From assembly GCA_020073105.1 (NCBI GenBank), contig JAIQFW010000026.1:1-43107 (forward strand): DNA of 43,107 bases, read 5' to 3'. The DNA comes from Terriglobia bacterium. GTDB lineage: Bacteria; Acidobacteriota; Terriglobia; Terriglobales; Acidobacteriaceae. The notes beneath the pieces were generated by a model. That model was not told the origin of the DNA, did no database searches, and saw only the letters and a program-made list of their open reading frames with translations. Shown one piece after another: positions 22,370 to 41,272 of this stretch (the stretch's first letter is position 1; each line of letters starts with the position of its first letter). The position numbers were made by a program, and so were the translations under genes.

Positions 22370-22404
22370 CCAGTTGTCAGTTCCCGGTTCTCAGTTCTCA
22401 GACT
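22370..22404. repeat. Heptamer array H1 (consensus TCAGTTC), five units
   Basis: Five 7-base units with consensus TCAGTTC, including one CCGGTTC variant. On the minus strand it overlaps the last codons of queG, and the TGA within one unit is the queG stop codon. It is the same unit, inverted, as the array inside recJ at 37117. Confidence 0.85.
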
Positions 22405-23476
22405 TAAGCTTGGTGAGGGCCCACCGGGCGTGCCCGGCCACCACTCCGTCTTCGTCCGCGGCCAGCTTTGTCAGCACCGGCAGGAAGTCGCGGTCCCCGC
22501 TGTTCCCCATGGCAATGACTGCATTCCTCCGCAGGCCGTTGCGTTTGGCGCGACGGATGGGTGAGCGGCGAAACCTCTCCCGGAATTCGTCGGGGCTCAT
22601 CTCCGCCAGCCAGTCCAGTGCCGGATTCACCAGGCCGTGCCGCGGCTGAAATTCAACCGCGCTTGTAGCAGGGGCTCTGCGGTTCCAGGGGCACACGTCC
22701 TGACAGATATCGCATCCAAACACGTGCCTGCCGACGCCTTCCCGCATTTCCTCTGGAACCGCGCCGCGCTTTTCTATGGTGAGATAGGAAATGCATTTGT
22801 TGGAGTCGAGTTGGTAGGGCGCAATCAGCGCGTCCGTCGGGCAGGCATCAATGCAGCGGGTGCAGGTGCCGCAACGGTCGGGAGCGGGCTGGTCAGGCTC
22901 GAGTTCGAGCGATGTCAGGATCACTCCGAGGAACAGCCACGAGCCCATCTTCTGATTCAGGATGCAGGTGTTCTTTCCGATCCACCCGACGCCTGCGTAC
23001 TTCGCGTAAACGCGCTCTACCAGCGGGCCGGTATCGACGTAACAGCGGGTCTGCAGCGCTGGTGCCTCGGGTGCGTGGGTGCCCCACTCTTTCGCGTCTT
23101 GTGCGAAAGGGTGGGAACAGGCTTGCTTCAACTTCGCGTCCACAATTTGCAGCCGGCGCATAACCGCCTCGTGGTAATCTTCCTGACTCCACGCATAGCG
23201 TGAAATCCATCCTCGGTCCAGGCCTTCTACCTGGGTCGAGTAGGGCTGCGCCGTATTGTAGTTGATGGCGCAAACAACCACGCTTCGGGCCCAGGGCGCG
23301 ACCGACTGCAGGGAAGCGCGCTTCAAGCTACCAGTCTCGTCATGCGCCTCCATGTATTTCATTTCCCCGGCACGACCAGCAGCGATCCATTCGGGAAAGC
23401 GCTCCAGTTCGGAGAACTCACGTACCGGAGCGATGCCGGCCAGCTCAAAGCCAGCCTCTTGGGCCGCCTGTTTCAC
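22391..23476 (-). CDS. queG: Epoxyqueuosine reductase QueG
   Basis: Cobalamin-dependent iron-sulphur enzyme for the last step of queuosine synthesis in tRNA. Visible: the N-terminal AQEAGFELAGIAPVREF, GWIGKNTCILNQKMGSW, and two 4Fe-4S motifs CGTCTRCIDACPTDAL and CDICQDVCPWNRR, plus a C-terminal HEAT-like stretch (RNAVIAMGNSGDRDFLPVL). Length 361 is usual. GTG 23476 is the first normal start codon. A good GGAGG lies 7 bases before an in-frame CTG at 23500, and the residues from there (LKASTIDLVKQAA) resemble family N-termini, so the true start may be that CTG. The C-terminal Ser-Glu-Asn and stop are encoded by a heptamer repeat. Confidence 0.94.
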   Translation of the reverse strand: MKQAAQEAGFELAGIAPVREFSELERFPEWIAAGRAGEMKYMEAHDETGSLKRASLQSVAPWARSVVVCAINYNTAQPYSTQVEGLDRGWISRYAWSQEDYHEAVMRRLQIVDAKLKQACSHPFAQDAKEWGTHAPEAPALQTRCYVDTGPLVERVYAKYAGVGWIGKNTCILNQKMGSWLFLGVILTSLELEPDQPAPDRCGTCTRCIDACPTDALIAPYQLDSNKCISYLTIEKRGAVPEEMREGVGRHVFGCDICQDVCPWNRRAPATSAVEFQPRHGLVNPALDWLAEMSPDEFRERFRRSPIRRAKRNGLRRNAVIAMGNSGDRDFLPVLTKLAADEDGVVAGHARWALTKLKSEN

Positions 23477-23596
23477 GAGGTCTATGGTGCTGGCCTTCAG
23501 GATTCCGCCTCCGTGGCAAGGATACCGCTTTGCCGCGAACCGCGTAGATCCAGACGCATCGTCTGGGCGTTTCTAGGTGTGAAGAAGAGAGGCGCT

Positions 23597-23899
23597 TCAG
23601 CCGACGAGCACCGAACGCAGTGACTCGAGGCGCCTGTGGAACTCCGCGGTGTCCCGTTTGTCGGCGGCGAGGGCTGCCTCTTCTTCTGCCCATTGCTGCG
23701 ATTCGGTGCATTCCAGAGTTTTCAGAAACCGCGCGGCGCACGGTTCACAGCAGAACCCCTGGAGGCGGTACGGCTCTCCCTCTCCTTCTTCGCTCTGAAA
23801 TTCGTACTGAAAGATGGGAAGACGCACGCCGCAACCGCTGCAGGTCTCCGGAGTATCTTGAAGGGGATCAAAAGTAGTGAACAGAATACTATTGCGCAT
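23597..23899 (-). CDS. Small Cys-rich protein, probable zinc-binding
   Basis: I do not recognise this 100-residue protein. It has two Cys pairs, ETCSGCGVRLP and GFCCEPCAARFL, that could form one treble-clef or ribbon zinc site. A charged helical C-terminus follows (WAEEEAALAADKRDTAEFHRRLESL). ATG 23899 follows AGGAGG at 4 bases, so I reject the longer frame to 24040. It lies between queG and another small gene on the same strand. It may belong to the same transcript as the 24041 gene, which has a CRP/FNR-type site upstream. Confidence 0.75.
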   Translation of the reverse strand: MRNSILFTTFDPLQDTPETCSGCGVRLPIFQYEFQSEEGEGEPYRLQGFCCEPCAARFLKTLECTESQQWAEEEAALAADKRDTAEFHRRLESLRSVLVG

Positions 23900-24040
23900 A
23901 CCGCCTCCTGGGTAACGGGTCATGCTTGGGAGAGGGCTGAGAGAAACTACTTCGAAATTCTCCTGGACCACAGCACCGGACCGGGGACCGCGCGCTGTCA
24001 GGTGCCGAAAAAAAGAAGTCGTTTCACACCGCCGAGCCAA

Positions 24041-24295
24041 CTACTCTTTCGGGCTTCGGCTGAAAACCAGGCGCTGTGGGTTCCAGCTGTGTACTTCTTT
24101 TTCGAAGTCCCGAGTCTGGGGTTCCTGGGCGCCGACCGCTGCCGGTTCCTGCTGCTCAGCCGCCAAGTGCTGGGCCAGGCATTTTTCCAGTTTCTCTCGC
24201 AGGTTGCTGTCGTTGACCAACCCCAGCAGTTCCGCCCGGTGCATGGCATCGAGGCCCTGGAGCAATGGGCACTTTAAGAGATCTTCATCCTTCAT
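24041..24295 (-). CDS. Small hypothetical protein downstream of nfnB
   Basis: An 84-residue protein with no recognised family. The first half is helical (LLKCPLLQGLDAMHRAELL, LREKLEKCLAQHL), with Cys at two places. The middle is low-complexity Ala/Gln/Glu, and the end is WNPQRLVFSRSPKE. ATG 24295 follows GGTGGGGG by about 5 bases; ATG 24310 is an alternative. A perfect TGTGA-N6-TCACA dyad lies about 90 bases upstream, in the gap after nfnB, so it probably starts its own transcript under CRP/FNR-type control. Confidence 0.6.
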   Translation of the reverse strand: MKDEDLLKCPLLQGLDAMHRAELLGLVNDSNLREKLEKCLAQHLAAEQQEPAAVGAQEPQTRDFEKEVHSWNPQRLVFSRSPKE

Positions 24296-24384
24296 AGTTT
24301 CCCCCACCATGGCCATTACACTCGGCCAATTCTGATTACAGTTCCTGCTCTGATCCTCCGGCAGTGACCTTCGCCACAACCGCC

Positions 24385-24400
24385 TGTGAGCAATGTCACA
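24385..24400 (-). promoter_or_regulatory. CRP/FNR-type binding site upstream of the 84-residue gene
   Basis: Perfect dyad TGTGA-GCAATG-TCACA. A TGTAAT (24335-24340, read on the minus strand) could be the -10 element. The dyad would then be centred about 64 bases before the start of transcription, a class I activator position. Confidence 0.55.
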
Positions 24401-24447
24401 AGCATGACATTGATGGAGGACGAACGCCCCCGCCGTTTCCCAAGCTC

Positions 24448-25899
24448 TCACCAGCTACCGGTCGTCAGGTACTCGTGGATTGACTTCGCCGCGCGCCGTC
24501 CCGCACCCATCGCCAGAATTACGGTCGCGCTCCCAGTCACGATGTCGCCGCCGGCAAACACACCGCGGCGGGAAGTGCGCTGGGTCATGACATCGGCTTC
24601 GATGTAATTCCGCTTGTTGGTGGCGAGACCCGGTGTCGTGCTCTGAATCAGCGGATTGGCGCTGGTTCCAATCGCAATTACCGCCACCGACAATGGCAGA
24701 TCGAACTCCGAACCGGCGATCGTGACTGGCCGCCGGCGGCCGGAGGCGTCAGGTTCGCCCAGCTCCATGCGCACGCAACGGGCTGCCTTTAGCCAACCTT
24801 TGTCGTCGGCCAGGAACTCGACCGGAGCGGTCAGCATGTGGAACTCGATGCCCTCCTGCTTGGCGTGCTTCACTTCTTCCTTGCGGGCCGGCATCTCGGC
24901 TTCGCTGCGTCGATACAGAACATAAGCCTTGCGGGCCCCCAAGCGCAGCGCCGAGCGGATGGCGTCCAGGGCCGTGTTTCCGCCACCGATTACGGCCACG
25001 TCCTTGCCGCGGAAGTCCACCATAGGCTCGTCGTACTTGGGGAACTCGTAGGCGTGCATCAGGTTGATGCGGGTGAGGAACTCATTCGCGGAATAGACAC
25101 CGTTGAAGTGCTCACCCGGGATCCCCATAAACTGCGGCAATCCCGCGCCCGTACCGATGAACACTGCGTCGTAGCCTTCTCCTTCCATCAGTTCGTTGAT
25201 GGTTACAGTCTTGCCGACCACGACGTTGGTCTCGAACTGCACGCCCATGGCGCGCATGTAGTCGATCTGCTCGCGGATAATCTGCTTGGGTAGGCGGAAC
25301 TCGGGGATGCCATAGACCAGCACGCCTCCCAGTTCATGCAGAGCCTCAAACACGTGGACTTCGTGACCCTTCTGCACCAGGTCGCCGGCCGCGGTGAGCC
25401 CGGATGGGCCGCTGCCCACGATGGCAACCTTCTTTCCGCTGGGCGGCGCCTTCTTGATGTCTTTGGGATCCATGTGCTGCTGCTCGTAGTCCGCCACGAA
25501 GCGCTCGAGATACCCAATGCCCAGGGGCGTAACCTTCTTGCCCATGAGGCAGCCGCCCTCGCAGTGATCCTCCTGAGGACACACCCGCCCGGTGATGGCG
25601 GGCAGCACGTTATCTTCGCGAATCTTGGCTGCGGCCCCCATGAAGTCCCCGGCCACGATCAACTGCACGAATTCTTTGACCTTGACGCCCACCGGACAAT
25701 CATTGACGCAGATCGGCTTGGCGCACTCCAGGCAGCGGGCCGCCTCCTGCCGGGCTAGCTCTTCGGAATAGCCCAGGTTCACTTCCCCGAAATTGGCGGC
25801 GCGTAGCAACGGCGGTTGCTCAGGCATGGGCTGGCGCGGCACCTTCATCCGTTCCTTGAGCGGCAGAGGGTTCAGCGACTTGTTCACGGTCTGGGTCAT
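24448..25899 (-). CDS. nfnB: NfnB-type large subunit (GltD-like FAD/NAD(P)-binding Fe-S protein)
   Basis: A 483-residue flavoprotein of the glutamate synthase small chain family. N-terminal Cys motifs CLECAKPICVNDCPVG and GRVCPQEDHCEGGCLMG bind two 4Fe-4S clusters. VAIVGSGPSGLTAAGDL is the FAD-binding motif, and DVAVIGGGNTALDAIRSALRLGA is the NADPH motif. GVFAGGDIVTGSATVILAMGAGRRAA is the conserved C-terminal signature. Next to an NfnA-like gene with an overlapping ATGA, it is best read as the NfnB subunit of NADH-dependent ferredoxin:NADP+ oxidoreductase (electron-bifurcating transhydrogenase), not as part of glutamate synthase; no large chain is present. AAGGAGG lies 7 bases before ATG 25899. 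Confidence 0.82.
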   Translation of the reverse strand: MTQTVNKSLNPLPLKERMKVPRQPMPEQPPLLRAANFGEVNLGYSEELARQEAARCLECAKPICVNDCPVGVKVKEFVQLIVAGDFMGAAAKIREDNVLPAITGRVCPQEDHCEGGCLMGKKVTPLGIGYLERFVADYEQQHMDPKDIKKAPPSGKKVAIVGSGPSGLTAAGDLVQKGHEVHVFEALHELGGVLVYGIPEFRLPKQIIREQIDYMRAMGVQFETNVVVGKTVTINELMEGEGYDAVFIGTGAGLPQFMGIPGEHFNGVYSANEFLTRINLMHAYEFPKYDEPMVDFRGKDVAVIGGGNTALDAIRSALRLGARKAYVLYRRSEAEMPARKEEVKHAKQEGIEFHMLTAPVEFLADDKGWLKAARCVRMELGEPDASGRRRPVTIAGSEFDLPLSVAVIAIGTSANPLIQSTTPGLATNKRNYIEADVMTQRTSRRGVFAGGDIVTGSATVILAMGAGRRAAKSIHEYLTTGSW

Positions 25900-26792
25900 C
25901 GCCCGCCTCCTTGCAGCGCGCACTCGGCCTCTTGTTGTTCTGCACGGATTCTCGCCAGCAGCGAATCGTGCTCACGCCGGAAGTCTTCCATGGATTGCTG
26001 CTCGGCGGCCCGATACATGGAAGTGCGCTGTACCAGTACGGCGAAATCGATGCGGTGCGCGTCGAATTCCGGGCCATCCACGCAGGCGAATTCGCTCTTG
26101 CCGTCCACCAGCACGCGGCACCCGCCGCACATGCCGGTCCCGTCGATCATGATCGGATTCAGGCTGACGATGGTGCGGATGTGCTCCTTGCGCGTCATGT
26201 CGGCGACGGCGCGCATCATGGGGATCGGGCCGACGGCCAGCACCAGGTCGATACGCGTGCCGTTGTCGATCAACTGCCGCAGCTTGTCGGTGACAAAGCC
26301 CTTGTCGGCGTAGGTGCCATCGTCGGTCGTGATCATCAGGGCGTCGCTGACCGCGCGCATCTCGTTCTCCTCGATGACCAGGTCTTTGCTGCGTGCCCCC
26401 ACAATCGAGATCACGCGGTTGCCGGCCCGCTTCAGTGCCGCGGCCGTGGGATACGCCATCGCTGTTCCGACGCCGCCACCCATCACCACCACGGTGCCGA
26501 ACTTCTCGATTTCCGACGGCTTACCCAGCGGTCCGACGATGTCCAGAATGCTGTCGCCGGTCTCCAGCGAATTCAGTAGATTGGTCGTCTTGCCGATCGA
26601 CTGCACCACGATGTTGATGGTGCCGCGCTCGGGATCGGACCTCTCTATGGTCAGCGGGATGCGCTCGCCCTGCTCATAGAGCCGCAGGATGACGAACTGC
26701 CCGGGTTGCTGTTTGCGCGCGATGCGGGGTGCCTCAATCACAAACCGTTTGATTCCGGGCGCAATGAACTCAGCGTGCTGGATTTTGAACAT
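25896..26792 (-). CDS. nfnA: NfnA-type small subunit (PyrK-like FAD and 2Fe-2S protein)
   Basis: A 298-residue protein of the PyrK/ferredoxin-NADP reductase type. The FAD-binding barrel shows GQFVILRLYEQGERIPLT, the NAD-binding part shows VVVMGGGVGTAMAYPTAAAL, and the C-terminal cluster site is MIDGTGMCGGCRV followed by FACVDG. In characterised NfnA the 2Fe-2S cluster is held by one Asp and three Cys; Asp, Cys, Cys and Cys are all present here. With NfnB it should couple NADH, NADPH and ferredoxin at the cytoplasmic side. GGGGAGAAC precedes the ATG. A CRP/FNR-type dyad lies upstream at 26847. The last residues overlap nfnB (ATGA). Database labels often read sulphide/dihydroorotate dehydrogenase-like. 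Confidence 0.83.
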   Translation of the reverse strand: MFKIQHAEFIAPGIKRFVIEAPRIARKQQPGQFVILRLYEQGERIPLTIERSDPERGTINIVVQSIGKTTNLLNSLETGDSILDIVGPLGKPSEIEKFGTVVVMGGGVGTAMAYPTAAALKRAGNRVISIVGARSKDLVIEENEMRAVSDALMITTDDGTYADKGFVTDKLRQLIDNGTRIDLVLAVGPIPMMRAVADMTRKEHIRTIVSLNPIMIDGTGMCGGCRVLVDGKSEFACVDGPEFDAHRIDFAVLVQRTSMYRAAEQQSMEDFRREHDSLLARIRAEQQEAECALQGGGR

Positions 26793-26846
26793 GTTCTCCC
26801 CAGAACTGCGTACAAGCTATTGTCCGGGGAGGCACGGGCAAGGGGC

Positions 26847-26862
26847 TGTGATGTGGGTCACT
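26847..26862 (-). promoter_or_regulatory. CRP/FNR-type binding site upstream of nfnA
   Basis: Dyad TGTGA-TGTGGG-TCACT (9 of 10 arm bases match the consensus). A possible -10 GACAAT lies at 26824-26819 on the minus strand. The predicted start near 26812 puts the dyad centre about 42 bases upstream, a class II activator position. Confidence 0.55.
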
Positions 26863-26924
26863 AAGGGGGGAAGTCGAGATCACGTTCTCTAACCCGAAAT
26901 ACAGCAGAGGGATAGCCAGGTGTC

Positions 26925-29417
26925 CTAGTTGGTCCCTGTCCCTGTTAATCCTACGACCTGCACACGGAAGGGAGCATCGTCCTTGAGTCCCAGCTTCCCC
27001 TGCCGGGTTCCGGTCTGGGTAGGGGAAAACACCACGCCAACCCGGCAGCTCTGCCCAATCCCCAACGTCGCCGGCGCCTTGGGGCAATCATTTTTTTGGG
27101 CGAAATCACCGATGATCCCTAGGCCGACGATGGTTACTGCGGTGCTGCCGGGATTGCTGAACAGCACCTCCCGGGGTTTGCTCCTGGTTCCCACCTGCTG
27201 TGGGCCAAAATTCAAGTTCAGGGGCGAAACCGCAATGGACGGAACATTCGGGTATACCGAGACCGTGCTGTCTGCGTAGTTGGCCACAGCGAAGCCCGCG
27301 GCTCCGATGCCCTTGAAATCGGCCACGGCGATCGAGATCGCGTTGGTGCCAACCTGGTAGTCGGAACGCGGCTGCTGCAACGTGCCATCACCGTTTCCGC
27401 GGAACACAGAGATTTGGCTGGAAAACGTGCTGGTCGCCATCAGGTCTGCTTTCCCGTCCCCGTTGAGGTCGGTAATGGCAACCGAGTCCGGAGAATTCGA
27501 CGTGACGTAATCCACGTGCGTCCGAAACGTCCCGTCTCCTAGTCCCATCAGCACGGAAACGCTGTTGGCATTAAAGTTGGCGGTAGCAAGGTCGGGTTTG
27601 CCATCGCCATTGAAGTCTCCCGCCGCCACCGAATTCGGTTGTTTCCCCACTGCGAAGTCGGCGTGAGTTCCAAAGGTCCCGTCGCCGTTACCCAAAAGCA
27701 CCGACACCGAATTGTTCCCCGAGTTAGCGGTGATCAAATCGAGCTTCTGGTCTCCGTTTACATCCGCAGCGACGATTGAGGCCGGCGAATTCCCGACCAT
27801 GTAGTCGACGTGAGCCTTCAGCGTGCCATCGCCTTTGCCCAACAAGACCGACACGAGGTTTCCACCCGCGGCGACTGCCACGTCGAGGTGCCCATCGTGA
27901 TTAAAATCCCCTGCAGTCACCCAGAATGGCACATCTGCAGTGGGGAAATCTTGTTTCGGCTGAAACGAGCCATTGCCGTTTCCCAGCAGAACAGAAACCG
28001 TGTTGTCGCCGGCGTTGGCGACGATGAGGTCGGATTTCAAGTCTCCGTTAAGGTCGCCAGCCGCTACCGAGTTCGGAATCGTTCCCGTGGCAAAGTCCGC
28101 GTGCCCTCCGAAATGCCCGTTACCCTGGTTCAGCAACACCGATGCCGTATTTGCGGTGCTATTGGCGGTGGCCAGATCAGGTTTCCCATCGCCGTTGAAG
28201 TCGGCCACGATCACAGATGTCGGGTTTGTCCCGGTCGGGGAATCTGTACGTGGGCTAAATGTCCCATCACCGTTTCCGAGCAGCACGGTCACACTGTTGC
28301 CGCCGGCGTTGGTCGTCAGGATGTCGGTAGCCCGATCGCGATTGAAGTCACCGGCGACCAGGAAATTCGCCGCCAGTCCTGCCCCATACTCCTTGTGCGC
28401 CTGAAACGTGCCATCGCCGTTGCCCAGCAAGACGGATACGGCATTGGTCGCTGAACCTGTATCCGTGGCGCCGATATCCGGCTTGCCATCGCGGTTGAAG
28501 TCGGCGACCGCCACAGAATGAGGTGCGATGAGAACAGGGAAATCCTGATGCGCCTGGAAGGTGCCATTGCCGTTGCCTAGAAGCACAGATACGGCATTGG
28601 AGGCGCCGTCAGCAACGATGAGGTCGGGTTTGCCATCATGGTTCAGGTCCGTTATCGCCACCGTTTCGGGTCCTTGGCCGGTGGCGTATTCGACGTGCGT
28701 CTGGAAACTTCCGTCGCCATTCCCCAGCAGCACCGAGACATCATTACCAATGCTGAGTGGGTAGAAGTTTGACGTTACGACATCCAGCTTCCCGTCCCCA
28801 TTGAGATCGGCAAGGGCCAGAGCAAGAGGGCTGGGGCCGGTTGCATACTCTACTTCGCTCCTCAGCGAACCATCACCGTTGCCCAGGAGAACCGAGATCG
28901 ACCCGTCTTCGCAGGGATTGCTTCCGCAGGTCTCGTTTTCCACGACCACGTCCCGCTTGCCGTCACCGTTGACGTCTCCGACCGCTACGCCCTCCGGCTG
29001 GTTACCCACGGGATAATCCACCCTGGCGGCAAACGCTCCATTGCCCTTCGCCAGCAGAATGGAAACCGTGTTGTCGGCCTGGTTGGCCACCACAACGTCG
29101 AGACGGCCGTCACCGTCGAGATCACCCGCGGCGATCGAAGAAGGCCCGGAGCCGGTGGGGAAGGTGAGTTGGGACGCAAAGGCGCCGTTCGGCTTCCCCA
29201 GTAAGATCGATAGGGTGTTGTCACTTCCGTTTACTACCGCCACATCGGTGAGGTGGTCACGATTAAAGTCGGCACTCACGACGGCCGTCGGCAAATTGCC
29301 GACAGGAAAGTCCGCCCGGTTGAACAGGTAGACCTGGGCTGAAAGCACACCAGAAAAAGAAACAAACGATAACACTAGGGCGAAGAATGGTCTGCCGGAA
29401 CAGCTCATAGGGGGCAT
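26925..29417 (-). CDS. Secreted FG-GAP/VCBS repeat protein, 14 repeats plus C-terminal Ig-like domain
   Basis: An 830-residue exported protein. A signal peptide (FFALVLSFVSFSGVLSA) is followed by 14 repeats of about 49-55 residues, each with a DxNxDGxxD-type calcium loop and an SVLLGNGDGTF-like strand. The 14th repeat has lost its calcium ligands (ADFKGIGAAG). Repeats of this kind form beta-propeller blades, so 14 would make two seven-bladed propellers. The last 100 residues (SPLNLNFGPQQVGTRSKP, VGVVFSPTQTGTRQG) are an ASH/HYDIN-like Ig-fold domain. AAGGA lies 6 bases before the ATG. It is probably cell-surface adhesion or matrix material; no anchor motif was seen. Confidence 0.9.
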   Translation of the reverse strand: MPPMSCSGRPFFALVLSFVSFSGVLSAQVYLFNRADFPVGNLPTAVVSADFNRDHLTDVAVVNGSDNTLSILLGKPNGAFASQLTFPTGSGPSSIAAGDLDGDGRLDVVVANQADNTVSILLAKGNGAFAARVDYPVGNQPEGVAVGDVNGDGKRDVVVENETCGSNPCEDGSISVLLGNGDGSLRSEVEYATGPSPLALALADLNGDGKLDVVTSNFYPLSIGNDVSVLLGNGDGSFQTHVEYATGQGPETVAITDLNHDGKPDLIVADGASNAVSVLLGNGNGTFQAHQDFPVLIAPHSVAVADFNRDGKPDIGATDTGSATNAVSVLLGNGDGTFQAHKEYGAGLAANFLVAGDFNRDRATDILTTNAGGNSVTVLLGNGDGTFSPRTDSPTGTNPTSVIVADFNGDGKPDLATANSTANTASVLLNQGNGHFGGHADFATGTIPNSVAAGDLNGDLKSDLIVANAGDNTVSVLLGNGNGSFQPKQDFPTADVPFWVTAGDFNHDGHLDVAVAAGGNLVSVLLGKGDGTLKAHVDYMVGNSPASIVAADVNGDQKLDLITANSGNNSVSVLLGNGDGTFGTHADFAVGKQPNSVAAGDFNGDGKPDLATANFNANSVSVLMGLGDGTFRTHVDYVTSNSPDSVAITDLNGDGKADLMATSTFSSQISVFRGNGDGTLQQPRSDYQVGTNAISIAVADFKGIGAAGFAVANYADSTVSVYPNVPSIAVSPLNLNFGPQQVGTRSKPREVLFSNPGSTAVTIVGLGIIGDFAQKNDCPKAPATLGIGQSCRVGVVFSPTQTGTRQGKLGLKDDAPFRVQVVGLTGTGTN

Positions 29418-29512
29418 TCGTTTCCTTAAACAATGTCTTGCGATTGTAAACTACGAATGGGCCGTCTGGCGGGGAGTTTGGGGGTAAGACTCGACTCAGA
29501 TGGAGCACCTCC

Positions 29513-32399: not shown

Positions 32400-32471
32400 G
32401 CGTCCTCCGTGTCCTCTGTGGTTTGATTTTCTCAAAAGCCTTCACCACAGAGGACACAGGGGACACAGAGA
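32400..32471. repeat. Inverted nonamer array (CACAGAGGA type)
   Basis: The left arm GTCCTCCGTGTCCTCTGTGG (32402-32421) and the right arm (32444-32471, three CACAGAGGA-like nonamers) face each other over about 21 bases. The array lies between the receiver/PPDK-N gene and the gdhA terminator. Related nonamers occur at 20251. Confidence 0.75.
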
Positions 32472-32528: not shown

Positions 32529-32549
32529 GAGACGTTGCCAGCAACGTCT

Positions 32550-32550
<1 letters not shown>
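32529..32550. repeat. GAGACGTTGC palindromic repeat, copy D
   Basis: Perfect inverted repeat GAGACGTTGC-CA-GCAACGTCTC, followed by TAC. Read on the minus strand, the GTAGAGACG edge supplies the TAG stop codon of gdhA, as copy A does for the glycosyltransferase. Confidence 0.82.
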
Positions 32551-33977
<1,427 letters not shown>

Positions 33978-34030
33978 TTAGGCCTTGCTATTCGGGATCT
34001 CTTGTGCCGAAGACAACCGGCCAACAGCTC

Positions 34031-34073
34031 ATTTAAGGCTTGCCTCCGAAAATTCGCTGTGATTCACATCACT
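34031..34073 (-). promoter_or_regulatory. CRP/FNR-type site and -10 element of gdhA
   Basis: Dyad TGTGA-TTCACA-TCACT at 34058-34073 and TTAAAT at 34036-34031 (minus strand), with no recognisable -35. The predicted start is near 34024, so the dyad centre is at about -41.5, the class II activator position. The rest of the 287-base gap before the DUF507 genes holds no gene that I can support. Confidence 0.6.
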
Positions 34074-34231
34074 CCAAATCGTGACCATGGTACGCCCAGA
34101 CAGTGCGAAATGACGCAGTTTTTTGACGGAACTAAGGGTAGCAACCGGTTGGAAGGCAGGGGTTGGGGCGGAGTGGTTCAGGAGTTAGTCCGTCGATCAC
34201 TGGCGATTGTGACGAAACACCGAGCGGTGTC

Positions 34232-34507
34232 TTACATCCCCAGCTTCTTCACTTCTTCCTGATAGTACTTGCGGTAAAGGATGTCCCACTCCTGGCTGCC
34301 TTCCAGGATGGTGCGCTTCTGGTTCTCGATCTTGTGCCGGGCGGACTGATCGATCTTCTCTTCTTGGTTCAGCAGTTCTTCCAGGAGCTTGCGGACCTCC
34401 AGGCGGACGGTGTTGTGGTCCTCCAGGAAATCCACTTCCTTTACATCGGCAAGTGCGTCGGTGACGACGTGCGCAACCTTGTTCACCTTGTCGCGATTCA
34501 CTCTCAC
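34232..34507 (-). CDS. DUF507 family protein, second of tandem pair
   Basis: A 91-residue charged helical protein (VRLEVRKLLEELLNQEEKID, ENQKRTILEGSQEWDILYRKYY) of the DUF507 type, function unknown. It starts at a GTG that overlaps the TGA of the preceding DUF507 gene (GTGA), so the two are translated together and probably form a heteromeric complex. Both are slender and acidic-basic, with no enzyme motif or membrane segment. The pair is paralogous: each has a central E.RI.DE/E.KIDQ helix and a C-terminal Y-rich helix. Confidence 0.8.
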   Translation of the reverse strand: MRVNRDKVNKVAHVVTDALADVKEVDFLEDHNTVRLEVRKLLEELLNQEEKIDQSARHKIENQKRTILEGSQEWDILYRKYYQEEVKKLGM

Positions 34508-34782
34508 AGCACCGCCTTGTACTTGCGCACCAGCTCGTTCTTCACCTTGCGGAACATCTCCTGGTAATTGGCGCCGGTCTTTTGCATTTCTTCCGAATAC
34601 GCCTCCAGGATGACGCGCACTTCGTCGTTGATGCGGTCTTCGAGGGTGAACTCCTCGAGCATGGCGGCATGCACCTTCTCCGTGACCGCGGGCGCGGACT
34701 TGGTCTCGATGAACTCGCCAGCTATGAGCTTTTTAGTGACTTCCCGGGCCAGATAGCCCACATATTCTTTCGACAGAAGCAT
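34504..34782 (-). CDS. DUF507 family protein, first of tandem pair
   Basis: A 92-residue helical protein starting MLLSKEYVGYLAREVTKKLI and containing EFTLEDRINDEVRVILEAYSEEM and YQEMFRKVKNELVRKYKAVL, a DUF507 pattern. ATG 34782 is chosen because the family starts at the LSKEYV-like point; the longer frame to 34839 enters a heptamer repeat. No ribosome-binding site is obvious. Its stop overlaps the start of the second DUF507 gene. The function is unknown. Confidence 0.8.
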   Translation of the reverse strand: MLLSKEYVGYLAREVTKKLIAGEFIETKSAPAVTEKVHAAMLEEFTLEDRINDEVRVILEAYSEEMQKTGANYQEMFRKVKNELVRKYKAVL

Positions 34783-34832
34783 GAGCGGATCGGATGTGTG
34801 CTGTGAACCAGGTAGTTTAGCACAGGAAGCCG

Positions 34833-34918
34833 TCAGCACTCAGCTGTCAGCATTCAGCCAGTCCGGAGCGCTCTGCCCTGCACAACCCGGGCTGAAAGCT
34901 AAGTGCTGAATGCTGACT
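34833..34918. repeat. Heptamer array H3 (TCAGCAT type), inverted pair
   Basis: Four units of the TCAGCAC/TCAGCTG/TCAGCAT/TCAGCCA kind at 34833-34860 face four GCTGAAT-type units at 34891-34918, 30 bases apart. The array sits between the divergent DUF507 pair and the 34980 gene. Confidence 0.8.
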
Positions 34919-34979
34919 GCGCGATCCTGACTGACACCCGCCCTCTTTCCGGCATACAATGTTTCATACGCAAAATTTT

Positions 34980-35456
34980 ATGTCTCCGCTCCCTGACGAT
35001 CTCGCCAGCCTGAAAGATGACATGGTTGCCTTCATCGAGGGCCACGGCATGCGCCGCTTCCCGGGTTTCGTAGATTTTGAAGAGGTCCAGAGTGTTTCTT
35101 GGAAATCTGAGGATAATCCCGACGGGTGGAAGGATTTCGTGGAACTTGCCAAGGCCGCCGGAGCGCCCTTCTTGACTATGGATTCCTGGAGGTTGGAGCG
35201 CGAAGAACTGGATCTGATGATCCAGCGCCTGAGCAACGCCGAATTTACCAACGATGAGGACATCGAAGAGGCGCGCTGGCTGCGGACCTACATCGGCAAA
35301 ACGGGATTTTTGCAACTGGGTTTCGCCCACCAAGGCGTAATGATGGTCTACGAGGCCTCCACACCGTGGTATGAGCGCTACCAGGGCATTCTGGAAATGG
35401 CGGATGACTTTGCCGGTTTGCCTATCGACGAGCCCGACCAGGACAACGAACCGTAG
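34980..35456 (+). CDS. Conserved-looking hypothetical protein
   Basis: I recognise no domain in this 158-residue acidic soluble protein. It is mostly helical at the start (LASLKDDMVAFIEGHGMRRF), with FEEVQSVSWKSEDNPDGWKDFV, LTMDSWRLEREELDLMIQRL and WLRTYIGKTGFLQLGFAH. The end is YEASTPWYERYQGILEMADDF. There is no signal peptide or membrane segment. ATG 34980 is preferred; a start 7 codons earlier is possible, and no Shine-Dalgarno sequence is visible. The stop lies 5 bases before heptamer array H4. Codon use matches its neighbours, so it is likely real. Confidence 0.7.
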   Translation: MSPLPDDLASLKDDMVAFIEGHGMRRFPGFVDFEEVQSVSWKSEDNPDGWKDFVELAKAAGAPFLTMDSWRLEREELDLMIQRLSNAEFTNDEDIEEARWLRTYIGKTGFLQLGFAHQGVMMVYEASTPWYERYQGILEMADDFAGLPIDEPDQDNEP

Positions 35457-35460
35457 AGAT

Positions 35461-35532
35461 TGTTGATTGTTGATTTTTGATTGTCGAATTACGGTCGCCG
35501 GGAAATCAACAATCAAAAATCAACAATGAACT
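35461..35532. repeat. Heptamer array H4 (TGTTGAT/ATCAACA), inverted pair holding the recJ start
   Basis: Four TGTTGAT-type units at 35461-35488 face four ATCAACA-type units at 35505-35532. The last unit is ATGAACT, whose ATG is the recJ start codon. The array fills the whole gap between the two genes. Confidence 0.85.
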
Positions 35533-37376
35533 GGCTTCCCCGAACCGCGGATGCGGCACAAGCCCAAATCCTCGCCGACGAACTGCGCGGCCATCCAAAG
35601 CTTGGCCTCCGTGATCCGCTGCTCTCAGTCACCCTTGCCCGGCTGCTTGTCATGCGCGGCATCACCGACACTAACACTGCCGAGCGATTTCTGGCCCCAT
35701 CTCTCGCCCATCTGCATTCTCCCTACCTGATGACCGGCATGAAAGCCGCCGTCGATCGCCTGGACGCTGCCATCGAGCGCAGGGAAGGCGTCCTCATCTA
35801 TGGTGACTATGACGTGGATGGGACTACCGCAATCGTCATCCTGAAGACCGCCATCGAGCTTTGCGGGGGCGCAGCCGACTTTCATGTCCCCCACCGTATC
35901 AAAGAAGGCTACGATCTGCGTGGCGATGTCATCGAGCGCGCGGCTGCGGCCGGCATTCAACTCATCATCAGTGTGGACGCCGGTATCCGGGCCTTCGCCG
36001 CCGCAGAAACGGCGCGAAGACTGGGCGTTGATCTGATCGTCACCGACCACCACCTCGCCGGTTCAGACGGCATGCCCCACGCTCTGGCGGTCCTGAACCC
36101 AAATCAACCGGGCTGCGAATATCCCTGCAAGGCACTGTGTGGTGCGGGCGTCGCGTTCAAACTGGCTCAGGCGCTGATGGAGCGGCGGCTCCGCGACCGT
36201 GACCAGGCGCCCCTGCTGAAGTCCTTTGCCAAGATGGTCGCGATTGCGACCATCGCCGACTCGGTGCCCCTGACCGGAGAGAACCGGGTATTTGCCAAGC
36301 TCGGACTCGAAGCCCTGCGCACCGCGGTGAATCCCGGGCTCAAGGCCCTGCTCGATGTCTCACAGGTCAGCGGGCGCCCGCTGACTTCCGGCGAAGTTGC
36401 CTTCCGCATCGCGCCTCGCATCAACGCTGCCGGGCGTATGGACATCGCTGCGGATGTCATCGAACTCTTCAGCACAAAGGATGAGGGGCGTGCCCGCTTG
36501 CTCGCCGGCAAACTTGATCGCCTGAACGCGGAGCGGCAGGAGGAAGAGCGCAGGATTCTGGAAGAGATCAACGCCCGGCTGGAAGAGGATTCCGCATTGC
36601 GCGATGCGTACTGTGTCGTGATCGACGGCGAGGGCTGGCACCGGGGTGTGATCGGCATCACCGCCACACGCGTGGTGGAACGTTGTCACCGCCCGGCGAT
36701 CGTCATCTCCCGTGATGGCGAAGAAGCCCACGGCTCGGGCCGGTCCATCCGGCCTTTTCACCTGCTGAACGCCCTGGAGTCCTGTGGGGAACTATTCACT
36801 CGCTACGGAGGGCACTCGCATGCAGTGGGCTTCACCATGCCGTCGGCCCGAGTTCCAGAACTGCGCACGCGAATGGATGCATATGCCCACGAACGCCTGA
36901 CGCCGGCCGACCTCGAGCCCGCCGTTGACCTGGATGCTGTGCTTCCGTTCGACCAAATCACTCCGGAGCTGTTCAAAGTGCTCAAGCGCCTGGAGCCCTT
37001 TGGCGTCGGCAATCGTGAGCCCATCTTTGCTGCCAGCAACGTCCGCCTCATGGCGCCGCCCCGCATCATGAAAGACAAGCACGTCAAGCTGAAGCTGGCT
37101 GCCACCACGGACCGCACTGAGAACCGGGAACCGAGAACTGAGAACTGGAGAAAATCGATCACCTACGATGCCTTGGGTTGGCACATGGCCGAACGTGTGT
37201 TGCAGGAACAACTCCTCCCTGGCGATGCCATTGATATCGCGTTCTCGCTCGAGTACAACGACCATTCTGAGTTTGGAGGCCTGGAGTTGTCCCTGCGGGA
37301 CTTCAAGACCAAGAAGAGCACACTCGTGGGCTCTGAACCCTCGCCGCCCGCCGCGCCGATGTTGACCACCCGTTAG
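35526..37376 (+). CDS. recJ: Single-stranded-DNA-specific exonuclease RecJ
   Basis: 5'-to-3' exonuclease of the DHH family used in recombination and mismatch repair. The 616-residue protein has IYGDYDVDGTTA (residues 91-101, motif I), VTDHHLAG (DHH at 174-176), APRINAAGRMD and HRGVIGITATRVVERCHRPA. It also has GSGRSI and GGHSHAVGFT of the DHHA1 part, then an OB-like C-terminal domain. ATG 35526 matches the usual MNWLPR-type start, but it lies inside a heptamer array and there is no ribosome-binding site. A second heptamer array is read in frame near residues 531-542 as TENREPRTENW, in the C-terminal domain. The frame stays open because a would-be TGA is TGG. Confidence 0.95.
   Translation: MNWLPRTADAAQAQILADELRGHPKLGLRDPLLSVTLARLLVMRGITDTNTAERFLAPSLAHLHSPYLMTGMKAAVDRLDAAIERREGVLIYGDYDVDGTTAIVILKTAIELCGGAADFHVPHRIKEGYDLRGDVIERAAAAGIQLIISVDAGIRAFAAAETARRLGVDLIVTDHHLAGSDGMPHALAVLNPNQPGCEYPCKALCGAGVAFKLAQALMERRLRDRDQAPLLKSFAKMVAIATIADSVPLTGENRVFAKLGLEALRTAVNPGLKALLDVSQVSGRPLTSGEVAFRIAPRINAAGRMDIAADVIELFSTKDEGRARLLAGKLDRLNAERQEEERRILEEINARLEEDSALRDAYCVVIDGEGWHRGVIGITATRVVERCHRPAIVISRDGEEAHGSGRSIRPFHLLNALESCGELFTRYGGHSHAVGFTMPSARVPELRTRMDAYAHERLTPADLEPAVDLDAVLPFDQITPELFKVLKRLEPFGVGNREPIFAASNVRLMAPPRIMKDKHVKLKLAATTDRTENREPRTENWRKSITYDALGWHMAERVLQEQLLPGDAIDIAFSLEYNDHSEFGGLELSLRDFKTKKSTLVGSEPSPPAAPMLTTR
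37117..37151. repeat. Heptamer array H2 (CTGAGAA) inside recJ
   Basis: Five 7-base units inside recJ, consensus CTGAGAA, the same repeat as H1 in the other orientation. The variants CCGGGAA and CCGAGAA and the last CTGGAGA unit remove in-frame TGA codons. Confidence 0.85.
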
Positions 37377-37440
37377 GGACCAAGGAAGGCCGTGTAAGCT
37401 ATTGAAATCAATACCCTTGGTTCGATGGCCGCAATTGGTC

Positions 37441-37479
37441 TTGACTTGGGCCGATTGTGATATATCATGATATATATCA
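37441..37479 (+). promoter_or_regulatory. vapBC promoter with overlapping operator palindromes
   Basis: TTGACT (37441-37446), a 16-base spacer and TATCAT (37463-37468) form a promoter. A perfect 14-base palindrome TATATCATGATATA covers 37461-37474, and TGATATAT/ATATATCA arms span 37458-37479. Binding there would cover the -10 element, as expected for a toxin-antitoxin operon that represses itself. The region is markedly AT-rich for this genome. Confidence 0.7.
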
Positions 37480-37493
37480 AGAGGATTACTCAC

Positions 37494-37736
37494 ATGCCCC
37501 GCACCGCAAAGCTTTTTCGCAACGGCCGCAGCCAGGCGGTGCGCCTGCCGGTGGAATATCGTTTCGAAGGCTCGGAGGTTTACATTCGCCGCGATCCATC
37601 CACCGGAGACGTGGTGCTGTCCCGCCGGCCGGAATCCTGGCAGGACTTCTTTCACTTCATGAAGTCCGTCGACGTGCCTGAGGATTTTCTTTCCGACCGC
37701 AGGGATGCGCCTCCGCAAAGGCGCGACTTGTTCTAA
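37494..37736 (+). CDS. vapB: Antitoxin VapB, AbrB/MazE-type
   Basis: An 80-residue antitoxin. The N-terminal swapped-hairpin DNA-binding domain is [20 protein letters not shown] with [15 protein letters not shown]. The acidic/aromatic C-terminus ([17 protein letters not shown]) should wrap the toxin. ATG 37494 follows GAGG by 9 bases; a longer frame from 37467 would run through the operator. The stop overlaps the ATG of vapC (TAATG). Together with VapC it should bind the palindromes upstream. Confidence 0.9.
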
Positions 37737-38137
37737 TGCCGGCTCACTTCTTGCTGGATACGAACACCGCCAGCTACATCATCAAGGGCAACGTCCCGAA
37801 TGTCCGAGAGCACCTGCTGAAGGTACCCATGGCCGAGGTTGCGATCTCCGTGGTAACGGAGGCTGAACTCCGTTTTGGCGCGGCCAGAAAACCAGAAGCA
37901 AAACAATTGGGAATTGCAGTCGAGGAGTTCCTGCTGAGGGTCGAGTCTCTGCCGTGGGATTCGGAAGCCGCCAAGCATTGCGCGAATCTGCGGGCCGGGC
38001 TCGAAACCGAAGGAGAACCCATGGGCAACCTGGACATGATGATCGCCGCCCAGGCGCTGGCCAAACAGCTCGTGCTCGTCACCCACGATCAGGTCTTCCG
38101 GCGAGTGAAACGGCTCCGCATCGAAGATTGGACGTAG
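37736..38137 (+). CDS. vapC: Toxin VapC, PIN-domain ribonuclease
   Basis: A 133-residue PIN-domain endoribonuclease toxin, expected to cut RNA (often tRNA or rRNA) when the antitoxin is lost. The metal-binding acids are in place: Asp8 in LLDTNTAS, Glu42 in VVTEAELRFG, Asp100 in NLDMMIAAQAL and Asp118 in VTHDQVF. These are the PIN-domain four, so it should be active. The start overlaps the vapB stop. The module sits between recJ and the LPS export genes. The RNA target is unknown. Confidence 0.93.
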   Translation: MPAHFLLDTNTASYIIKGNVPNVREHLLKVPMAEVAISVVTEAELRFGAARKPEAKQLGIAVEEFLLRVESLPWDSEAAKHCANLRAGLETEGEPMGNLDMMIAAQALAKQLVLVTHDQVFRRVKRLRIEDWT

Positions 38138-38170
38138 CTTGACCGCATGTCGGTCCCAGCCCCAACCAAT

Positions 38171-38219
38171 ACCTGACACCTGACACCTGACGCCTGAAGC
38201 CTGACGCCTGACGCCTGCA
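38171..38219. repeat. Heptamer array H5 (ACCTGAC/GCCTGAC), seven units
   Basis: Seven direct 7-base units, ACCTGAC then GCCTGAC types, ending 15 bases before the lptCA start codon. There is no inverted partner. Confidence 0.88.
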
Positions 38220-38234
38220 TTACACTGTCTCCAG

Positions 38235-40490
38235 ATGCCTCTTTCCATCGCTCATTTGCGGCGCTGGTTTGCCGGGGGCGCGATCGCGGTGGTGCTGATC
38301 GTGGCCGGCGTGTATTTCTATGCCCGCCACCGCGTGCAGAACGCCTTGAAACAGGTGCCGGAGAAGATCGGGGTCGAAATCAAGCAAAGCGCTACCGGAT
38401 TCTCCATTTCCAAGTCGGAGCAGGGACGCACACTGTTCAAGATCGAGGCCAGCAAGGCAGTACAGTTCAAACAGGGCGGACGCGCCGAACTGCACGATGT
38501 GGCCATCACCCTCTACGGACGCGATTCCAGCCGCTACGACCACATCTACGGCAGCGATTTCGAATACGATCCGCAGTCCGGAAACGTAACCGCGCAAGGC
38601 GAGATCGAGATTGATCTGGAAGCTAACCCGGCTGGAATCCTCAATCCCGACCAGGCTGCCCCGAAAGAGCTCAAGAATCCCATCCACCTCAAGACCAGCG
38701 GGTTGGTATTCAATCAGAAGACGGGCGATGCCTACACCAAGCAGAGCGTCGAGTTTCGCCTGCCGCAAGCCAGCGGATCGGCGATGGGAGTGAGCTACGC
38801 CGCGACGACCAACGTGCTCACCTTGGAGTCCGAACTCAAGATCGTCGGCGCCAGCGACAGAGACATGACACTCACCGCGAGCCGGGGAACGATTGCCAAG
38901 AACCCGCGTCAGATCGTGCTGGACCAGCCTCGGATCAAGGTGGCTGCCCGGCAATGTGAGGCAGAAAAGGCCACACTCTTTTTACGCCAGGACAATACCA
39001 TGGGCCGGATTCTGGCGGACGGCGGCGTGCGCGTGTCCTCAGAGGGACCGCGACCGGCGGAGGTACGGGCGGAACAGCTCGAACTCGTCTTTGCCAAGGC
39101 ACATGACAGCCTGCGAGCAGCGATTTTTTCAGGAAATGTGACCGCCACTGGCTCCGGGGCGCAACTATTGCAGGCCAACGCCGGTCGGGTGGTGCTGGAC
39201 TTTGCTGCTAAGAACCTGCTGAAGAGTGTCCATGCGGAGGACAATGTAAGGCTGCTGCAGCACCCAAACCCGTCGGGCCCCTCAGCCGGCGCCCAGGATG
39301 TGGAACTCAGCGCCCCGGTGGTTGACTTCGTTCTGTCTCAGGCCAGCCATCTCGATCGGGCCGAAACTTCCGGTGCTGCCCAGATCGCGGTGCGATCAGC
39401 CGTGACCGGTAACGGACCACAGACCCTGGTTACGGCGGGAAAGTTTGTGGCCCGCTTCGACCGCTCGGGCCAGCTTTCCTTGGTTCAGGGGACGACCGAT
39501 GCGCGAATCGTGAGCCAGAATCCCGGCCAGCCTGACCGCGTCAGCACTAGCCAGGCCATCGAGGCGGCTTTTCGCCGCGGGGGTGGTATCGAGTCCATCG
39601 TGCAGCAGGGAGGAGTGACGTACACCGATGGCGAGCGCAAAGCTTGGGGTGATCGCGCCCGCTACACTCCTGCGGATCAAGTCTTGGTGCTCACCGGGTC
39701 GCCACGCGTCACCGAGAGCGGGATGACCACCACCGCCCGCACCATGCGTCTGGATCGCACAACCGGTAACGCTGCCGCTGAGGGCGATGTCAAAAGCACC
39801 TACAGCGATCTGAAGCCGCAGCCCGACGGAGCCCTGCTGGCATCCGCCAGCCCAATCCACGTCACGGCTCGTTCGATGACGGTGCACGGCACACCAGCGG
39901 TAGCTCTCTACACCGGAGATGCGCGCTTATGGCAGGATGCCAATATCGTAGAAGCTGCTTCGATCGAATTTGATCGGGACCATCGTTCGATGGTCGCCAG
40001 CGGAGCACCCGGGCAATCCGTTTCGACCGTTCTGATGCGGACGGACCAGAAACAAAACTCGACTCCTGTGGCGGTTACGTCTTCTCGCCTGACCTACACC
40101 GACAACGAGCGGCGGGTACACTTCGAGGGCAACGTGATCGTCAAAGTGGCGGATGTCACAATCACGGCCCGCCAGATGGATGCCTTCTTGGAAGCCCGGG
40201 GGCCCACCACCTCGCGCCAACCATCTTCCCCGGTCGGAAAACTCGACAGAATCGTCGCCGCCGGGGGAGTTGTTATCACCCAACCCAACCGCCGGGCTAC
40301 GGGGGACCAACTGGTTTACAGCGCCGGGGAGGACAAGTTTGTCCTGACCGGCGGTCCGCCTAGCATTTTTGATGCCGAACATGGCAAGATTACCGGGGTT
40401 TCGTTGACTTTCTACAGACACGATGATACGGTGCTCGTAGAAGGAAACAGCTCATCCCCCGCCGTTACGCAGACGCGAGTGGCACGATAA
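38235..40490 (+). CDS. LptC-LptA fusion, LPS export periplasmic bridge
   Basis: A 751-residue protein that should carry lipopolysaccharide from LptB-driven extraction to the outer membrane. The N-terminus has one membrane anchor (AGGAIAVVLIVAGVYFYA, residues 14-31). An LptC-like domain follows (KIEASKAVQFKQGGRAELHDVAI, YGSDFEYDPQSGNVTAQGEIEID). Then come several OstA/LptA-type repeats (VRVSSEGPRPAEVRAEQLELVF, GDRARYTPADQVLVLTGSPRV, FEGNVIVKVADVTITARQMDAF, and GDQLVYSAGEDKFVLTGGPPS). This is far longer than single LptC or LptA (about 190 residues each), so a fused bridge is inferred. The next gene is lptB, starting the base after the TAA. A heptamer array abuts the leader and no ribosome-binding site is seen. 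Confidence 0.85.
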   Translation: MPLSIAHLRRWFAGGAIAVVLIVAGVYFYARHRVQNALKQVPEKIGVEIKQSATGFSISKSEQGRTLFKIEASKAVQFKQGGRAELHDVAITLYGRDSSRYDHIYGSDFEYDPQSGNVTAQGEIEIDLEANPAGILNPDQAAPKELKNPIHLKTSGLVFNQKTGDAYTKQSVEFRLPQASGSAMGVSYAATTNVLTLESELKIVGASDRDMTLTASRGTIAKNPRQIVLDQPRIKVAARQCEAEKATLFLRQDNTMGRILADGGVRVSSEGPRPAEVRAEQLELVFAKAHDSLRAAIFSGNVTATGSGAQLLQANAGRVVLDFAAKNLLKSVHAEDNVRLLQHPNPSGPSAGAQDVELSAPVVDFVLSQASHLDRAETSGAAQIAVRSAVTGNGPQTLVTAGKFVARFDRSGQLSLVQGTTDARIVSQNPGQPDRVSTSQAIEAAFRRGGGIESIVQQGGVTYTDGERKAWGDRARYTPADQVLVLTGSPRVTESGMTTTARTMRLDRTTGNAAAEGDVKSTYSDLKPQPDGALLASASPIHVTARSMTVHGTPAVALYTGDARLWQDANIVEAASIEFDRDHRSMVASGAPGQSVSTVLMRTDQKQNSTPVAVTSSRLTYTDNERRVHFEGNVIVKVADVTITARQMDAFLEARGPTTSRQPSSPVGKLDRIVAAGGVVITQPNRRATGDQLVYSAGEDKFVLTGGPPSIFDAEHGKITGVSLTFYRHDDTVLVEGNSSSPAVTQTRVAR

Positions 40491-41219
40491 ATGCGTACTC
40501 TGGCCACTGACGAAATCGGCAAATCCTACCGCGGCCGCCGGGTTGTAAATGGCGTGAGCCTACGGGTTCAACAGGGCGAAGTTGTTGGTTTACTTGGGCC
40601 TAATGGCGCCGGCAAGACTACAACCTTCTATGCCATCGTGGGCCTGGTCCCCCCTGATACCGGTCGGGTTTTGATGGATTTGGAAGACATTACTGACGTA
40701 CCCATGTATCTCCGGGCTCGGCAGTATGGGGTCAGCTATCTCCCTCAGGAAGCATCGGTCTTCCGCAAGCTGACGGTTGAGGAAAACATTCTGGCGGTTT
40801 TGGAAGCTCAACCCATCTCCTGGCACGAGCGCCGGGAAAAGATGGAAAAGCTGATCGACCAGTTGGGCTTGGAACATATTCGCCAGAACCGGGGTTACGC
40901 GCTTTCCGGGGGAGAGCGGCGGCGCGTGGAGATTGCCCGCGCCTTGTGCATTAACCCGACATTCATTCTGCTCGACGAGCCGTTTTCGGGGATCGATCCG
41001 ATTGCTGTACTCGACTTGCAGAAGATCATCAGCGATCTGAAAGCGAGCGGAATCGGGGTCCTGATTACGGACCACAACGTCCGGGAGACGTTATCGGTGA
41101 CCGACCGCGCCTACATTATTAATGAAGGCCGGATCTTCTTCCAAGGGACGCCGGAGCAGTTAGGCGGCAATCCCGAAGTCCGGCGGGTGTATTTGGGCGA
41201 GAGTTTCTCGCTGGTGTGA
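40491..41219 (+). CDS. lptB: LPS export ABC transporter ATP-binding protein LptB
   Basis: A 242-residue ATPase that powers lipopolysaccharide extraction from the inner membrane together with LptF/LptG, which are not in the window. The Walker A is GPNGAGKTT (residues 36-44), the ABC signature is [15 protein letters not shown], the Walker B is [12 protein letters not shown] and the switch is [17 protein letters not shown], all of LptB type. It follows the LptC/LptA fusion directly (TAAATG), so they form one operon. Downstream is a heptamer array and then rpoN; the same order, lptA-lptB-rpoN, is common in other bacteria, which supports the identities. Confidence 0.97.
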
Positions 41220-41224
41220 AGGGC

Positions 41225-41272
41225 GGCTAGCTTCTAGCCAAGAAGAGCTAGGAGCTAGTAGCTGGAAGCTGA
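41225..41272. repeat. Heptamer array H6 (GAGCTAG type) between lptB and rpoN
   Basis: Two CTAGCTT/CTAGCCA-type units at 41227-41240 face four GAGCTAG-type units (41245-41272). The last unit ends 5 bases before the rpoN start codon. Confidence 0.78.

Follow-up and report, generated by a model that had tools for sequence, protein, structure and literature searches.

Long simple sequence repeats (LSSRs) and the STRR heptamers of cyanobacteria have 7 nt as a preferred unit length. Among long simple repeats, heptamers are reported to be the most frequent kind in many bacteria, for which the reasons offered are suggestions only (PMC4679880). The same source describes direct repeats of TAACTGA in Beggiatoaceae, Cyanobacteria and Bacteroidetes (MacGregor 2015); in the BOGUAY genome, 169 sets are direct and one is indirect (PMC4679880). 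In Geobacter metallireducens, classes 1–4 are heptamer and octamer sites, mostly paired; class 3, termed 'predicted global regulator binding sites', comprises 16 DNA sequences with one consensus, MTYCTGA repeated five times (PMC2700814). REPs and REPINs are palindromic units of 20–40 bp that carry a GTAG or CGTC tag and have a cognate Y1/RAYT transposase beside them. REPs are described as lying between co-directional and convergent genes, close to where the upstream gene ends; some are inserted in genes for DNA repair, and two species share one such insertion at nearly the same position (PMC3733652). REPINs are defined in PMC3116915. The parS sites of pSM19035 are described as unspaced heptads, direct and inverted, with the consensus WATCACW, which lie in plasmid promoter regions and are read by Omega/ParB (PMC9499535). 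Heptamer repeats are known in other bacteria, and the mirrored layout right behind gene ends that we report here is little described. Among the papers on Acidobacteria listed by a search that most subscription journals lay outside, titles and abstract openings held no description of such arrays.

We analysed a 43,107-nt stretch of DNA from a Terriglobia bacterium (contig C277, JAIQFW010000026.1; hereafter, the window), which belongs to an assembly of 5.14 Mb in 308 contigs that is 97.6% complete. The best matches to its recJ gene came from Terriglobia and Acidobacteriota MAGs, and genes for glutamate dehydrogenase, RecJ, LptC/LptA, an ABC ATPase at the LptB position, sigma-54 and QueG lie near the arrays. 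TRF returned eight period-7 rows in the window, at positions 22371, 34828, 34891, 35458, 35504, 37116, 38172 and 41245; the six arrays named in a first-pass annotation of this DNA are real and are all among them. Defining islands as 21-base windows with at least 17 of 21 matches at a given lag, we counted six lag-7 islands across the window; the other lags from 1 to 30 yielded only single islands, at 14, 21, 28 and 30.

To this we added an array-blind sample of 64 stretches (800,696 bp), of which 58 came from a random shuffle and six were selected because their contig numbers were round. The sample contained 30 islands at lag 7, compared with five, zero and four at lags 6, 8 and 9, respectively, and shuffled sequence gave none at lag 7 at the same 17/21 threshold. 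Across these 800,696 bp, tandem repeats of 7 nt therefore outnumber those of adjacent lengths, the criterion for LSSR/STRR repeats, and the outcome that the first-pass annotation had named as counting against its reading, no excess at 7 over 6, 8 and 9 bases, did not occur. Two stretches that are N throughout (L030 and L045) were left out of the 800,696-bp sample and of the count of 39 hairpins given below, and are still within the totals for the family list, the contig spread and an earlier gap count of 32 hairpins. Fifteen ascertained stretches (the window and 14 others; 270,894 bp), chosen for array matches, were kept apart from the array-blind counts; both kinds are mixed in the family list, the partner count of 56 in 92, the loops, the 7-in-37 comparison, the G.U/A.C counts, the contig spread and the hairpin context.

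Period 7 is preferred genome-wide, and the arrays are real, spread throughout the genome of this soil bacterium and located largely within small gaps between neighbouring genes. Their distribution across the contigs of their own genome was uneven (chi2 138, 80 df, ascertained stretches included), for which core-gene regions or a mixed bin could be the cause, GC alone having been checked. The GC correlation of 0.38 in that analysis is tainted, as the masked stretches L030 and L045 entered it as GC 0.

Three inverted pairs had been seen in the window at first pass, and we recovered all three, at 34829–34920 (partner detected at a relaxed threshold), 35462–35531 and 41225–41274 (by fold); what had been missed is that many arrays form the arms of a pair and have a fixed place behind a stop codon. 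The first pair lies between divergent genes, with a plus-strand 5' arm of TCAGCNN heptamers (34828..34863, TRF) and a minus-strand 3' arm of GCTGANN units (34891..34920, TRF and fold). In the second, a plus-strand 5' arm of TTGATTN heptamers (35453..35490) begins at the stop codon that closes the upstream gene (34959–35456), and the last heptamer of the minus-strand 3' arm of AATCAAC units (35502..35533) includes the recJ ATG at 35526. The third consists of a plus-strand 5' arm with a CTAGC core (41225..41241, by fold) immediately 3' of the lptB stop and a minus-strand 3' arm of GAGCTAG units (41242..41274) immediately 5' of the rpoN start.

The TCAGTTC array on the plus strand (22371..22401; 4.4 copies by TRF) overlaps the 3' end of queG, a minus-strand gene at 22391–23476 with QueG_DUF1730/Fer4 matches. 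A minus-strand array of CCTGACR heptamers (38163..38221) lies 13 nt upstream of the lptCA start and had no inverted partner scoring at least 14. The array placed at 37117 is coding rather than intergenic: CTGAGAA units on the minus strand (37114..37151) run in frame inside recJ and add about DRTENREPRTENW in the RecJ_OB region. At the gathering score, Rfam gave no matches to known structured RNA in the window. Separately, TRF rows at 32402–32470 mark an inverted repeat of 9-base units (CACAGAGGA / TCCTCTGTG-like) immediately upstream of a minus-strand PPDK_N gene; by eye, it resembles in kind the 153-bp palindromic insertion that genome G101 carries at locus B (see below).

The arrays had been described as unrelated in sequence, which proved incorrect. 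The unit TCAGTTC at 22370 is the reverse complement of the unit CTGAGAA at 37117, and all nine window arms tested have the form YYRRY in some phase and strand, for which about 39% would be expected per unit. Among the consensus units of the 46 array-blind arrays, 41 had YYRRY and 37 had YYRGY in some phase and strand, compared with 39% and 23% of letter-shuffled units, respectively; the shuffled expectation was made from 100 arrays, ascertained and array-blind, and arms that belong to one pair do not count as independent observations here. Exact TCAG or CTGA occurred in 15 of the 46 array-blind units. The commonest families were TCAGCNN (with TTAGC and TTGGC variants), CTAGCNN/GCTAGNN, TTGATTN, GTCGTTN and TCAGTTC. 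An arm holds about four to five tandem heptads (up to eight; median 4.9 per array), each with a core of approximately five letters and one or two free letters.

A search with four consecutive YYRGCNN units gave 228 overlapping matches in the own genome versus four for the reversed control, and 1403 versus 162 when summed across 41 genomes. The pattern was present in 81 of 149 phylum-sample genomes, in some of which control matches equalled pattern matches, and relatives had from 0 to 228 matches per genome. The units share a common pattern, with several families per genome. The initial description of a fixed period with drifting sequence therefore stands for the period, 7 being preferred, and finds no support for free drift, given the shared pattern and a core that changes less than the free letters where the element is kept.

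Searching for inverted partners (within 140 bp, score at least 10), we found one for 56 of 92 arrays, compared with 4 of 92 when the flanks of other arrays were used and 0 of 92 for shuffled flanks; two of 94 arrays, near contig ends, were left out. Of the 46 array-blind arrays, 26 had a partner and 20 had none. Inverted doublets in extragenic space near gene 3' ends, the criterion for REPs and REPINs, are thus present, although these 20 arrays are unpaired. The loops had a median length of 38 nt. Compared all against all, those in G000 were unrelated between elements, the top scores coming from array-like letters inside the loops, and those in G018 included one related pair. As loops are unrelated between loci, we rejected a single dispersed element; this agrees with the first-pass view that the arrays do not reflect spread of one element, as do the different unit families that some relatives carry in an equivalent gap and the lag-7 excess at recJ loci of other phyla (below). 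Ranked against same-family arms of other elements, an arm's own partner had a mean percentile of 0.75 (19 pairs) and, in G018, 0.78 (10 pairs), in pairs that were ascertained by like alignment, a bias in their favour. The own partner was the best-matching arm in only 7 of 37 cases, and we therefore rejected exact inverted copying of arms.

Gene contexts were taken from our own, unvalidated gene caller. Among 39 hairpins, 34 were in co-directional gaps, four in convergent gaps, one in coding sequence and none in divergent gaps. The 5' arm started within 15 nt of the upstream stop codon in 30 of the 34 co-directional hairpins (median 2–2.5 nt past the stop), and the 3' arm lay within 15 nt of the downstream start in 20 of them. 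An earlier count gave 32 hairpins for 389 co-directional gaps versus none for 118 divergent gaps (Fisher p 0.0003). At the relaxed threshold there were 45 hairpins, three of them divergent, including the window's 34829–34920 pair (p 0.017). The 29 hairpins of G018 comprised 17 co-directional, five convergent, six coding (some perhaps in miscalled genes) and one divergent, and the co-directional versus divergent comparison was not significant in that genome (p 0.08).

At the gap upstream of recJ, shown for 17 relatives, four (L087, L090, L096 and L097) had only 7–9 nt, stop codon included, one (L085) had a heptamer hairpin of the same family as the window, and the remaining relatives had no lag-7 island. 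The printed gap is too long in L089, L101, L103, L104 and L107 because the recJ alignment begins inside the gene; by eye, the gaps of L089 and L101 are compact. Behind lptB, arrays were present in three of 11 relatives shown: L088 had the window's family, and L086 and L089 (whose contig ends before rpoN) had other families. In the region 5' of the 34959 gene, L085, L086 and L092 again had the TCAGC core, near the same place and with different free letters.

Within recJ, the aligned site of the internal array was occupied in L077 (genome G006), and G009, G014 and G006 had, by eye, roughly 45–60 extra residues at the same site; L087, L094, L095 and L099 had arrays at about the equivalent place, judged without alignment. 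The extra residues in the RecJ OB region are to be seen in stretches L077, L072 and L073. The recJ loci of other phyla contained 13 islands at lag 7 versus three, four and two at lags 6, 8 and 9, respectively. Heptad hairpins were noticed at such loci (L128–L164), for example in L131 (Atribacteria) and L137 (Prevotellaceae).

To compare close congeners, we turned to g60, an array-rich genus elsewhere in the phylum, in which a 6 kb region was matched in 31 of 31 genomes; we compared G101 and 20 others. At locus A, the element is kept and well aligned in six species (G101 and five at 88–89% identity). All six have a 3' arm of four units, whereas the 5' arm has four units in four species, five in G179 and fewer in G171. 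Variable positions numbered 1 of 40 in the core and 8 of 16 among free letters (Fisher p 7e-5), and 14 of 50 at third codon positions of the upstream gene (p 0.001 against the core), in a test that used six species for the 3' arm and, for the 5' arm, four; each species was selected because it retains the element. At this one locus, in species keeping the element, the core thus changes more slowly than the free letters. G111 and G207 also keep the element and were outside the core test; G202, the closest to G101 (91%), has a decayed copy, others have short remnants, and G208 has nothing. The core test is weakened because it concerns one locus and is conditional on retention, and because loss and decay elsewhere would also be expected under neutral loss.

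At locus C, the heptamer element was present in G101, G137, G171, G111, G207 and G208, and four close congeners (G202, G163, G203 and G179) had a different, unrelated palindromic repeat. This repeat is of the GCAGAAGCCCGGCTTCGCCGGGCTTCTGC type and lies, in L229–L232, in the gap that has heptamer hairpins in G101, G137 and G171. Locus C also showed length differences of 7 nt and 14 nt between congeners, and copy number differed between species by some 7-nt indels. The unit-wise gain or loss that the first-pass annotation had proposed looking for at the same loci does occur between congeners, by 7 nt at loci A and C. At locus B, G179 (L232) has a GC-rich unit of roughly 67 bp, with a palindrome in it, repeated six times in tandem; G101 has a different, palindromic insertion of 153 bp, and 9 of 20 congeners have a gap of 1 nt.

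The comparisons show a period of 7, a shared unit pattern, inverted pairing of about half of the arrays, placement behind stop codons and mainly in co-directional gaps, presence or absence at orthologous gaps and, for retained elements at locus A, a core slower to change than the free letters. We tentatively favour REP/BIME-like palindromic intergenic elements with arms of heptads, born by 7-nt duplication, settling in stop-codon gaps and with a core under selection at the DNA level. Arrays would be born and resized by occasional 7-nt duplication or slippage and would come to lie in gaps just after stop codons, where they may be tolerated or useful. The core would then be held by selection on a DNA-level reading rather than on strand-specific RNA pairing; candidate readings are arm–arm pairing in single-stranded DNA and a protein stepping along the heptads. 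Locus A, conditional on retention, and a core that reappears at a single gap in different genera point to upkeep at the DNA level, and 7-nt duplication with DNA-level selection is favoured by the flat G.U/A.C counts, the absence of RVT_1 and the lack of Y1_Tnp in array-rich genomes (all below). This explanation is weakened by the three divergent hairpins among 45 at the relaxed threshold, the p of 0.08 in G018, the 20 of 46 unpaired arrays, the exact TCAG/CTGA in only 15 of 46 units, the only moderately better match of own partners, the unrelated sequence at locus C in four close congeners and the uneven contig spread. Neutral slippage, in which a polymerase slips by 7 nt, arrays survive where no gene breaks and unit similarity is a by-product, fits the 7-nt indels and the frequent loss and decay between congeners, the lag-7 excess in other phyla and the proposal on polymerase contacts by Mrazek et al. 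2007, as cited in PMC4679880. However, it sits poorly with a core that changes less than the free letters where the element is kept, with inverted pairing far above the swapped-flank control, with the YYRRY pattern common to units and with placement tied to stop codons. Selecting core-test species by retention of the element lowers our confidence in the REP/BIME-like explanation, to somewhat less than even, and raises that in neutral slippage, which we still regard as doubtful.

The arrays might instead be cooperative sites for a heptad-reading protein, by analogy with the ribbon-helix-helix ParB/Omega of pSM19035, which has 7–10 unspaced heptads in its parS sites and is described as requiring at least four contiguous ones for full activity (PMC9499535). 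The four to five heptads per array, both orientations and the combination of a fixed core with free letters would suit such a reader, and the Geobacter authors likewise proposed global regulator sites (PMC2700814), but several unit families per genome would require several readers, few elements are in divergent promoter gaps, and Omega_Repress had no match in 41 genomes, where the control was equally silent; we consider this unlikely. A role as intercistronic RNA hairpins, maintained because they act in the processing or stability of mRNA or in the control of translation, seems similarly improbable to us. Elements in co-directional gaps would be transcribed, a Shine-Dalgarno-like motif was found at 1 of 14 starts abutting a hairpin versus 176 of 396, and PMC4679880 has a section under such a heading for Beggiatoa. 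Under selection on RNA pairing, however, G.U mismatches should outnumber A.C mismatches in the sense strand, and we counted 63 G.U versus 59 A.C (36 versus 38 in G000 and 27 versus 21 in G018; 63/122 in total, interval 0.42–0.61), so we rejected it. Templated extension, suggested at first pass, was also rejected for the case that a reverse transcriptase carries it out: RVT_1 had no match in the own 97.6% complete assembly, was uncorrelated with the pattern count and was missing from 10 of 16 genomes with at least 20 pattern matches, the own genome included. The remaining idea, that these are mobile elements of the REPIN type and that an IS200/RAYT-like Y1 transposase moves them, draws on the positional habit that the elements share with REPs (PMC3733652) and on a correlation between Y1_Tnp count and pattern count across 41 genomes (Spearman 0.58; 0.52 after genome size). 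By contrast, Y1_Tnp matched in only 5 of 47 g60 genomes and was lacking in the array-rich G101, G171, G137, G190, G208, G221 and G222; loops are unrelated between elements; and two of the nine Y1_Tnp matches in the own assembly, when inspected, had no lag-7 array within 7 kb. With 42 of 47 g60 genomes free of Y1_Tnp, array-rich ones included, we rejected RAYT mobilisation despite the correlation. The REP transposase family is not required for the arrays, and the REPIN idea is largely refuted and very improbable.

A broader version of the favoured DNA-level explanation would place the arrays in a cross-phylum class of stop-anchored DNA hairpins, in which the heptad step is fixed and the letters are lineage-specific, a general process counting seven and a DNA-level reader holding the core. 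The lag-7 excess and the heptad hairpins at recJ loci of an Atribacteria genome, a Prevotellaceae genome and others hint at such a class, which we regard as speculative. The paired layout, the stop anchoring and the split between core and free letters make the slippage, protein, RNA-hairpin and mobile-element ideas testable against one another by routine genome comparison, and the relatives, whose genomes have 0 to 228 pattern matches, form natural series of gain and loss.

Compared with known systems, the arrays share the preferred 7-nt length with LSSR/STRR repeats, which are not known to be described as paired, stop-anchored arms. With REP, BIME and REPIN elements they share placement and insertion in a repair gene (PMC3733652, PMC3116915), but their arms are tandem heptads of several families, and in g60 they need no Y1 transposase. 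Like the parS sites of pSM19035, they are unspaced direct and inverted heptads; those sites differ, as described, in their promoter location and single consensus (PMC9499535). The TAACTGA repeats resemble the arrays in being intergenic heptamers with a CTGA core, close 5' of starts with few ribosome binding sites, but they are one unit and almost all direct, whereas about half of the arrays here are inverted-paired and belong to several families (PMC4679880). TAACTGA itself was not found as the unit of direct repeats upstream of starts, the units being TCAGCNN, TTGATTN, GCTAGNN, GTCGTTN, TCAGTTC and others. CTGAGAA/TCAGTTC arrays do occur here and can be likened, by text description, to Geobacter class 3, which shares tandem heptamers, a CTGA core and pairing but has one consensus where we find several unit families (PMC2700814). 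The best reading is that these stop-codon-anchored palindromes of heptad arrays are a variant of known heptamer repeats, the paired heptamers of Geobacter and the TAACTGA repeats of Beggiatoa.
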